Shown one piece after another: positions 15,004 through 21,593 of a stretch of DNA of 64,000 nt. Numbering within the stretch: position 1 is the first letter of the stretch; every line of letters starts with the position of its first letter. Where the stretch lies: positions 62,001 through 126,000 of the forward strand of contig JAAXWO010000001.1 of NCBI GenBank assembly GCA_013334965.1. Direction: 5' to 3'. Below the pieces are notes generated by a model, which searched no databases, was not told the origin of the DNA, and saw only the letters and a list, made by a program, of their open reading frames with translations. This stretch comes from Chlorobiaceae bacterium. GTDB taxonomy: Bacteria > Bacteroidota > Chlorobiia > Chlorobiales > Chlorobiaceae. The translations under genes were made by a program, and so were the position numbers.

Positions 15004-15861
15004 TTATGACAGCGCCATGAGCGCCGTGCTGACGGCCCTGACCATGGAGGTCATGGACTTGCCGGTACCGGCATCTTTTGTTGACGTGACCCTGGGCGGC
15101 ATTCCAAGGGGTTCGACGGTGCGTGCGGTTTCGCGGCGAATGCGTTGCAGCGACGGTGCGTCAGCAGCAGTGCCTGTTATCCAGACAGGTGCACCGTTAC
15201 CCGGCGATGACGTCAGCTCTGAAATGGCAAAATAGTCCCTCTCGTGGCCGTTTTTGACCGGCCAGTATCTGAAGTATCCTATTATTCCGTTCACCGACAC
15301 GTAATACGCGGCGTAGCGCTCTTCAAGTTCGAGCACGGAGAAGGGTTCCGTGGTTCCTGCCGAAAGGCTTGCGACCGGTTCGATATGCAACCCGCTCATG
15401 CCTACCGTGTGACCCTGCTTCAGCTCTTTTTCTAGGGAGCGGGAAGGTTCGGCCGGGTAGAACATCAGCATTTGCCTTTCGAGTCCGACAGGATGGTCAG
15501 GGGTTTTTGTCATGGACATGACATGCCATGACCACTGTTCGATGTTTTTCAGGAAGTATCCGGCTTCGATTCTGCAGAGCCTGTCGCGACTGTCCCTCGT
15601 GGCGGAGGCCGGGAACCATGCCGGCAGGGTCAGGATCTCGGCAGGAGAGTACGAAACCGCAACCGGCTCGTCCTTCCACTCCCTGAGCATCGAGCAGAGT
15701 TTCATGGCCGCTTTTTTCCCTTTTGGACCGCTCATGGCCTCAAGACCTGTATTCAGGGTGCGGCACATGGTCATGCAGAAAGACGCGGCGCCCGTCGATT
15801 TGACTCTGACGATGGTCGTCGTGCTGGCGTCGATCGCGCACGCTATCTGGCTCCTGCTCAT
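15004..15861 (-). CDS. Hypothetical protein, possibly PilM/ASKHA-like
   Basis: IACAIDASTTTIVRVKS N-terminus; start overlaps the stop of the upstream ComEA-like gene by 1 bp. Confidence 0.6.
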   Translation of the reverse strand: MSRSQIACAIDASTTTIVRVKSTGAASFCMTMCRTLNTGLEAMSGPKGKKAAMKLCSMLREWKDEPVAVSYSPAEILTLPAWFPASATRDSRDRLCRIEAGYFLKNIEQWSWHVMSMTKTPDHPVGLERQMLMFYPAEPSRSLEKELKQGHTVGMSGLHIEPVASLSAGTTEPFSVLELEERYAAYYVSVNGIIGYFRYWPVKNGHERDYFAISELTSSPGNGAPVWITGTAADAPSLQRIRRETARTVEPLGMPPRVTSTKDAGTGKSMTSMVRAVSTALMALS

Positions 15862-19371: not shown

Positions 19372-20742
19372 ATGACCAACGACATTTTCGAAATTGCGGG
19401 CAATACCCCCCTGGTACTCATGAAACAGCTGTCCAGGCTGAAGCGTCCACGGTTCATGGCGAAGCTCGAGTATATGAATCCCTGCTTTTCCCACTATTGC
19501 CGGGTCGCAGCTGCAATCATCAGGGACGCCGAGGATCGGGGCATCATCCATCCCGGCATGACGCTGGTCGACTGGACGTTCGGCACCAGCGGGATCGCAC
19601 TGGCCATGGCAGGCGTCAGCAGGGGCTACAAGCTCCTTCTCGTCGCGCCTGACAGCATCTGCCTGGAAAAACAGGAGGTGCTCAGGGCCCTCGGCGCCGA
19701 AATGGTATTCACCTCATCGGACGCAAGGCCTCACGAACCGCGTAGTTGCGTCGCCGTGGCGGAAAACCTTGTCCGTACCCTTCCGCATGCGTGGTTTGCC
19801 AATTTGTATGAAAATCCCGTCAGCAGTCAGGTCCACGAGTCCGGTACTGGGCCAGAGATTTTCAGCCAGACGGGGGGCAAGGTAACGCACGTGTTCGTAC
19901 CCATGGCTTCCGGAGCCATGATTTCCGGGATCGGACGTTATCTGAAGTCCGTCAATCCATTGATCCGGATCATAGGCGTCGAGCCCGAAGGGTCGGTCTA
20001 TCAGGGCCTTCACAGCGGAAAGTCCACCGGCACTGTCAAGCCGTTCCAGCTTGAGGATATCGGGGCTCTTCAGGCTACATCTTTCTGGGATACCTCCGTG
20101 ATCGACCAGATCGTCCAGGTCAGCGATGCCGATGCGTTCAACTGCGGCAGGGAACTGTTTCGTTCCGAAGCTGTGTTTGCCGGTGGAGCTTCAGGTGCGG
20201 CCATGGCGGCAGCCCTCAGGGAGGGGGAGGAATTCGGAGAAGACGCGGTCGTGGTGGTGATGATGACCGATTTCGGGCCCTACGACCTGTCACGGATGTA
20301 CAACGACGACTGGATGCGCAGGAACGGCTTCTACCGCAAATCCAAAACTGCGCTCGACCAGATAACCGCCGACGACATCCTTCAGCGCAAGGCTCGCAAG
20401 GACCTGATATTTGCCGTACCCGAGCAGACGCTCTCGGATGTGTTCGAAATGATGAAGCAGAACGATGTTTCACAGATGCCGATCGTCTCTTTCGGCGCTC
20501 CCATCGGCAGCATCAGCGAGAACCAGATCCTGTCCATCCTTATCGAGAACGATGCCGCCATGAATGCCGAGGTCGTCGCCTTCATGGAGAAACCGTTTCC
20601 CGTATGCCAGCCCGACGCGACGATATCCGAACTGTCGGAAAAATTGCAGAAAAACGCTGCGGGCGTGCTTATCAGCCTGAGTGATGGGCGTTTGCAACTG
20701 ATTACGAAATCTGATCTTATCGATGCGCTTACCCATAAGTGA
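19372..20742 (+). CDS. Cystathionine beta-synthase-like fold-type II protein with tandem CBS domains; PLP-lysine not conserved
   Basis: CBS/CysK-like scaffold (NTPLVLMKQL, RALGAEMVFT, TGPEIFSQTGGKVTH, VEPEGSVYQG) plus C-terminal CBS pair; NPCFSHYCR in place of NxGxSxKDR. Confidence 0.85.
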   Translation: MTNDIFEIAGNTPLVLMKQLSRLKRPRFMAKLEYMNPCFSHYCRVAAAIIRDAEDRGIIHPGMTLVDWTFGTSGIALAMAGVSRGYKLLLVAPDSICLEKQEVLRALGAEMVFTSSDARPHEPRSCVAVAENLVRTLPHAWFANLYENPVSSQVHESGTGPEIFSQTGGKVTHVFVPMASGAMISGIGRYLKSVNPLIRIIGVEPEGSVYQGLHSGKSTGTVKPFQLEDIGALQATSFWDTSVIDQIVQVSDADAFNCGRELFRSEAVFAGGASGAAMAAALREGEEFGEDAVVVVMMTDFGPYDLSRMYNDDWMRRNGFYRKSKTALDQITADDILQRKARKDLIFAVPEQTLSDVFEMMKQNDVSQMPIVSFGAPIGSISENQILSILIENDAAMNAEVVAFMEKPFPVCQPDATISELSEKLQKNAAGVLISLSDGRLQLITKSDLIDALTHK

Positions 20743-21032: not shown

Positions 21033-21593
21033 ATGAAGGTAGAGTCCAGAAAAAGGCAGTATATTCTCGAAGGAAAAATCAAGCCCGGTTTTTGCGATGG
21101 GTGCGGAGGCATCACCGAACAGGCGTTCGTCGGTGAGTGGAAGCCCAGCGACAAACCGAAGGATGACGATCTACTGCTCGGATCGCCCGAGAAAAAGTCG
21201 AAAGAAAAGAGATCTGCTCACGGCCAGGCGATGTCGGCCTCCGAGAACCAGTACTGGATCCGGTGTTCGGCCTGCAACCAGGTCCATCTTCTCAAAGAGT
21301 GGCAGATTCAGATCGACAAGGAGTTGAGCCCGGAAGAGCTCAAGCCTGAAGATTGCCAGGTTTATACCCCTCACGGCATTTATGCCCAGGGGGATGCTGT
21401 TTTTCATGAATCGCTCGGCGAGGTCGGCGTGGTCCGTGAAAAGCAGGCTACAGGAAGCGGCGCCCACGTCATCATTGTGGAATTCTGCAAGAGCGGGCGG
21501 AAGCAGCTTCTCGAAAATGTGCAGCTCAATCAGGGTAAACAGAAAAGCTCTGAATCGCTGTCCGATATTATTAAACTAAAATTAAGACGTTGA
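21033..21593 (+). CDS. Hypothetical protein with two CxxC pairs
   Basis: CDGCGG and CSACNQ pairs; long ORF upstream of rpsU with coding character. Confidence 0.65.
   Translation: MKVESRKRQYILEGKIKPGFCDGCGGITEQAFVGEWKPSDKPKDDDLLLGSPEKKSKEKRSAHGQAMSASENQYWIRCSACNQVHLLKEWQIQIDKELSPEELKPEDCQVYTPHGIYAQGDAVFHESLGEVGVVREKQATGSGAHVIIVEFCKSGRKQLLENVQLNQGKQKSSESLSDIIKLKLRR

Follow-up and report, generated by a model that had tools for sequence, protein, structure and literature searches.

A cystathionine beta-synthase orthologue of Chlorobiaceae without the PLP lysine and with its strongest conservation in the Bateman module

The locus and its product

The window, the whole 64,000-nucleotide stretch of Chlorobiaceae DNA analysed here, contains an unbroken plus-strand reading frame with an ATG start that encodes a protein of 456 residues (Table 1). 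Pfam places a PALP domain at residues 7-300 (E 2.6e-59) and a CBS domain at residues 341-391. The second CBS repeat lies under the Pfam threshold, yet aligns end to end with the M. tuberculosis cystathionine beta-synthase Rv1077 (MtbCbs; PDB 7XNZ), the closest solved relative by sequence. With its PALP domain, the CBS pair behind it and an alignment from end to end, the protein belongs to the CBS family by descent. The preliminary description of this DNA, which had reported an intact frame, a scaffold of the CBS/CysK type over the whole length and a persisting Bateman (CBS) pair, is borne out on these points. The predicted fold resembles several PALP/CBS catalytic cores (rmsd 2.0-2.9 A); the model is usable for the PALP domain and of low confidence in CBS1 (pLDDT below 50), probably because the alignment there hardly varies. 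The NCBIfam model for cystathionine beta-synthase, TIGR01137, gives the protein 341.7 bits against a curated cut-off of 510.25, a shortfall dropped as evidence because all catalytic CBS in the order fall short too (best score 481.9).

Table 1. Features of the pseudo-CBS gene and its neighbour, with positions in the window
Feature	Position	Strand	Basis
Pseudo-CBS coding sequence, 456 aa	19372..20742	+	Intact ORF; PALP and CBS domains; Chlorobiaceae orthologues
Former catalytic domain (fold type II PALP), residues 5-320	19384..20331	+	Pfam PALP 7-300; predicted fold
Degenerated NxGxSxKDR segment, NPCFSHYCR, residues 36-44	19477..19503	+	Alignment of 74 orthologues with 10 sister-family and 62 other catalytic CBS
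Tyr42 (codon TAT) at the Schiff-base lysine position	19495..19497	+	Aligned with K44 of MtbCbs
Degenerated TSGNTG loop, TFGTSG, residues 69-74	19576..19593	+	Alignment
Leu145 (Met in most orthologues) at the Gln site of catalytic relatives	19804..19806	+	Alignment
Degenerated PLP-phosphate loop GTGGT, ASGAM, residues 179-183	19906..19920	+	Alignment; MtbCbs contacts mapped
GGASG, residues 271-275, with Ala273 at the PLP-contact serine	20182..20196	+	Alignment
TDFGPYD, residues 299-305; Tyr replaces the invariant Arg304 of catalytic relatives	20266..20286	+	Alignment
Bateman module (tandem CBS repeats), residues 332-454	20365..20733	+	Pfam CBS; Rv1077 alignment; hyperconserved in Chlorobiaceae
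T-K-S-D (445-448), nucleotide-binding TxxD of the second CBS repeat	20704..20715	+	Orthologue alignment
Downstream neighbour, 186 aa, zinc-ribbon-like, CxxC pairs, SH3-like-looking end	21033..21593	+	No Pfam family

Throughout Chlorobiaceae, and at most loci of the sister families, the 186-residue gene is the next gene downstream of CBS. A functional link between the two was set aside, since the gene adjoins catalytic CBS as well and has a homologue in family f2, where no full-length CBS match was found; such a link does not account for the change in the pseudo-CBS. Upstream, a minus-strand ORF of 285 residues (15004-15861) is conserved in Chlorobiaceae (27-74% identity) and has no Pfam match. 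A search for a riboswitch upstream of the pseudo-CBS gave nothing credible: two matches, both under the Rfam gathering score, were to eukaryotic or archaeal small RNAs. Phage records yielded distant PALP relatives only, below 60% identity.

Loss of the PLP site

The PLP lysine is replaced by Tyr42, aligned with K44 of Rv1077, and TFGTSG, (M)ASGAM and GGASGAA stand where catalytic relatives have TSGNTG, GTGGT and GGSSGAA, as had been read from the sequence by eye. Three further changes at cofactor or substrate positions extend that earlier list: D43 to Cys/Tyr, Q145 to Leu/Met and R304 to Tyr. Position 145 is Gln in 30/30 sequences of the catalytic set and in 0/74 of the Chlorobiaceae sequences. 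Eight residues of MtbCbs are reported to contact PLP (PMC9232105), and the protein of the window differs at six: K44 to Y, N74 to T, G181 to A, T182 to S, T185 to M, S269 to A. Entropy at these eight positions is zero in the catalytic clades and unremarkable in Chlorobiaceae (0.63, against 0.79 at the remaining positions). The extended pocket is somewhat better conserved than the rest of the PALP domain in Chlorobiaceae (entropy 0.50 vs 0.83, a value as low being reached by 0.5% of random sets), so the old pocket might hold a new ligand.

Another lysine at the Schiff-base position, which would have overturned the preliminary description, did not emerge: the comparison of Chlorobiaceae with catalytic sequences reveals no newly conserved lysine in the PALP domain. 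The only conserved PALP lysines, 31, 87, 100 and 192, are just as conserved in enzymes that also have K42. The PLP lysine, the GTGGT phosphate loop and the pyridine-contact serine expected of a CBS enzyme are all missing, and the loss of PLP binding is near certain.

Occurrence and origin

Orthologues were found in 79 of 86 Chlorobiaceae genomes from two genera, under the organism names Chlorobaculum, Chlorobium and Pelodictyon; three of the 79 (G028, G067, G074) have a partial match only. The seven genomes without an orthologue are mostly incomplete assemblies, two of them (G045, G073) being listed as 92% and 97% complete. Of 74 distinct full-length Chlorobiaceae sequences, 72 have Tyr at position 42, and the other two have Asp and Ser. 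All 72 catalytic relatives compared have Lys there (10 of sister families, 20 sampled across the phylum, 30 of a single genus and 12 of a single family). The two exceptions to Tyr, L054 and L081, show that there is no strict need for tyrosine at this position. The earlier proposal to look for the lysine loss in other Chlorobiaceae is thereby answered, and a sequencing error at position 42 is excluded because the lysine is missing from all 74 distinct sequences. One genome of the second genus (G042) encodes, alongside its pseudo-CBS, a second, distant CBS (31% identity) with all catalytic motifs.

Sister families of the same order (f3, f4) have CBS with all catalytic motifs. Their proteins (L105-L114) are encoded at the same locus, share 43-46% identity with the pseudo-CBS and fall with it in a supported common clade, but retain NPGGS[IV]KDR, TAGNTG, GTGGT and GGSSG, which the pseudo-CBS does not. 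The sister-family order is mostly CBS, the unnamed zinc-ribbon-like gene and aroA, with one or both CBS neighbours undetected at a few loci. In a maximum-likelihood tree, Chlorobiaceae and the sister families are joined at 100/100, and Chlorobiaceae form one clade, also at 100/100, whose stem is long (0.92 changes per site). The common locus and the 100/100 clade establish orthology with the catalytic CBS of relatives, and both count against a recent lateral acquisition, which was rejected. Given the catalytic CBS that the sister families have at this locus, the tree indicates that the PLP site was most likely lost once, on the Chlorobiaceae stem.

Selection and inverted conservation

Selection on the protein is purifying, with a median dN/dS in Chlorobiaceae of about 0.12 in the PALP domain and about 0.06 in the Bateman module, both rough values given synonymous sites near saturation in many pairs. 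The ratio of Bateman to PALP pairwise distance has a median of 0.40 in Chlorobiaceae (5-95% range 0.22-0.62) and medians of 1.78, 2.73, 2.82 and 3.10 in four catalytic sets, none of which has a 5-95% range reaching into the Chlorobiaceae range. Each value is a median for a group of related sequences and so of non-independent pairs, and Bateman distances to other members of the phylum are so large as to be rough. Mean entropy across PALP, CBS1 and CBS2 is 0.79/0.28/0.40 in Chlorobiaceae, 0.50/0.78/0.84 in the sister families and 0.97/1.94/1.98 across the phylum. Since the ancestor shared with the sister families, the PALP domain has changed by 0.72 on the way to Chlorobiaceae vs 0.25 to the sisters, and the Bateman module by 0.38 vs 0.40. 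On the way to Chlorobiaceae, change in the catalytic domain has therefore sped up roughly threefold and the Bateman module has kept its pace; constraint was relaxed on the catalytic domain alone. In Chlorobiaceae the strongest selection now falls on the Bateman module and no longer on the catalytic domain.

Pseudoenzymes are a known kind of protein. The catalytic residues are gone and purifying selection acts on the protein, which makes it a pseudoenzyme. A selected, non-catalytic role, as first suggested from the intact frame and the persisting Bateman pair, now finds strong support in the family-wide loss of the PLP site, the dN/dS values and a Bateman module conserved above the catalytic domain.

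Tetramer positions and the Bateman ligand

In MtbCbs, the catalytic core forms dimers, and the Bateman module drives tetramer formation and binds SAM (PMC9232105). Five MtbCbs positions tested for their part in the tetramer correspond to F358, E383, S388, K446 and I450, all invariant in 74/74 Chlorobiaceae sequences. The second CBS repeat retains the ribose-binding TxxD motif, with T445 in 68/74 and D448 in 74/74 orthologues; by pattern alone, it corresponds to the SAM residues T535 and D538 of human CBS (PMC9232105). The four SAM residues proposed for MtbCbs (PMC9232105) are not conserved in the pseudo-CBS, which makes SAM specifically doubtful. Because the tetramer positions and TxxD are kept and the MtbCbs SAM residues are not, assembly together with an adenosyl-type ligand is proposed here, although the conservation of the Bateman module could reflect assembly instead of ligand sensing.

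Proposed role and competing explanations

The best explanation, favoured with moderate confidence, is a PLP-free CBS pseudoenzyme in which the Bateman module has become the selected part, acting as an adenosyl-type sensor that signals through a CBS-like tetramer. An ancestral CBS would have turned into such a protein on the Chlorobiaceae stem with its whole fold retained. It would still form a CBS-like homotetramer, its Bateman module would bind an adenosyl-type ligand (SAM, AMP, ADP or ATP), and the former catalytic body would relay the ligand state to a partner protein. Such a relay would have parallels in proteins of the same fold that act as partners. The cysteine-synthase-like CYSL-1 of C. 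elegans is described as binding and inhibiting EGL-9 under modulation by H2S (PMC10942545). In CYSL-1 a fold type II scaffold serves in signalling, much as it might in the pseudo-CBS, but CYSL-1 belongs to a different lineage, and the text consulted mentions no Bateman module. CysK likewise binds other proteins, such as CdiA-CT (PMC5562914); there the PALP fold serves as a protein-binding platform, comparable to the role proposed here, in what is a working biosynthetic enzyme. In a broader and more tentative version, possible but doubtful, green sulfur bacteria would use the protein for signalling throughout the family, with the Bateman module as functional core and the dead body as output or ligand-binding surface, so that sulfur or photosynthetic metabolism would be linked to adenosyl or energy status.

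Two other readings also keep the protein functional, and each is unlikely. The protein might be a pseudo-subunit that uses its retained PALP dimer face to pair with active CysK and imposes Bateman control on it; partnership with an active paralogue had also been suggested in the preliminary description, and no result favours it specifically. The same genome does encode an active-looking CysK that keeps the lysine (NPLGSVKDR), a serine acetyltransferase-like gene whose product ends in Gly-Ile lies at another locus, and the predicted model retains the PALP fold, but CysK is encoded at other loci and the PALP domain, taken as a whole, is the faster-changing part. Alternatively, the old PLP site might bind a new ligand or run PLP-independent chemistry, a use that would fit the recurrent bulky or aromatic replacements (Y42, F/Y70, M145, M183, F301, Y304) and the better conservation of the extended pocket. 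Against such repurposing, positions 39, 43, 70, 72 and 179 drift freely, the eight PLP contacts are conserved no better than average, and constraint is strongest in the Bateman module.

Much less probable is a residual PLP enzyme that holds the cofactor without a Schiff base or by another lysine. Asn72 is present in 49/74 orthologues, and Ser40 and Gly181 are mostly kept, but the phosphate loop, the pyridine-side Ser and the Gln are all replaced, the conserved PALP lysines are kept equally beside K42 in enzymes, and mutation of the lysine in MtbCbs (K44A) abolishes the 412 nm peak (PMC9232105). A decaying gene or sequencing artefact has next to no probability: the lost active site would fit it and nothing beyond does, the frame is open in all full-length copies found, and the locus is maintained across two genera. 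The orthologue set and the low dN/dS rule out a pseudogene.

Relation to known systems

The pseudo-CBS has the domain order of MtbCbs (Rv1077, PDB 7XNZ) and human CBS over its whole length. Such CBS enzymes are its best match by both sequence and predicted fold, and its residues at the MtbCbs tetramer interface are identical or similar. Unlike these enzymes, the pseudo-CBS lacks the lysine and most PLP contacts, so that catalysis is not expected from its sequence, and its conservation is shifted to the Bateman module. The open-access literature searched, a coverage that leaves most subscription journals outside, yielded no account of a green sulfur bacterial CBS lacking the lysine; within it, a family-wide CBS pseudoenzyme with inverted domain conservation appears to be new. 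The passage from an enzyme to a probable regulator can be placed on the tree, since sister families still have the catalytic orthologue at this locus and the exchange of the conserved domain is measurable. Annotation as CBS by homology carries a risk, crediting Chlorobiaceae with a transsulfuration step that is unlikely to come from the pseudo-CBS gene.

CysK of the same genome scores over its curated cut-off and adjoins a gene of the cystathionine gamma-synthase/lyase family; with its lysine, it is predicted to be a PLP beta-replacement enzyme that remains in the genome. Two near-identical cysK 3-prime pieces (L003 and L004, on contigs C9 and C18 of G000) lie apparently at contig ends, one of them followed by a serine acetyltransferase-like gene, and are perhaps a duplicated or split repeat in the assembly.
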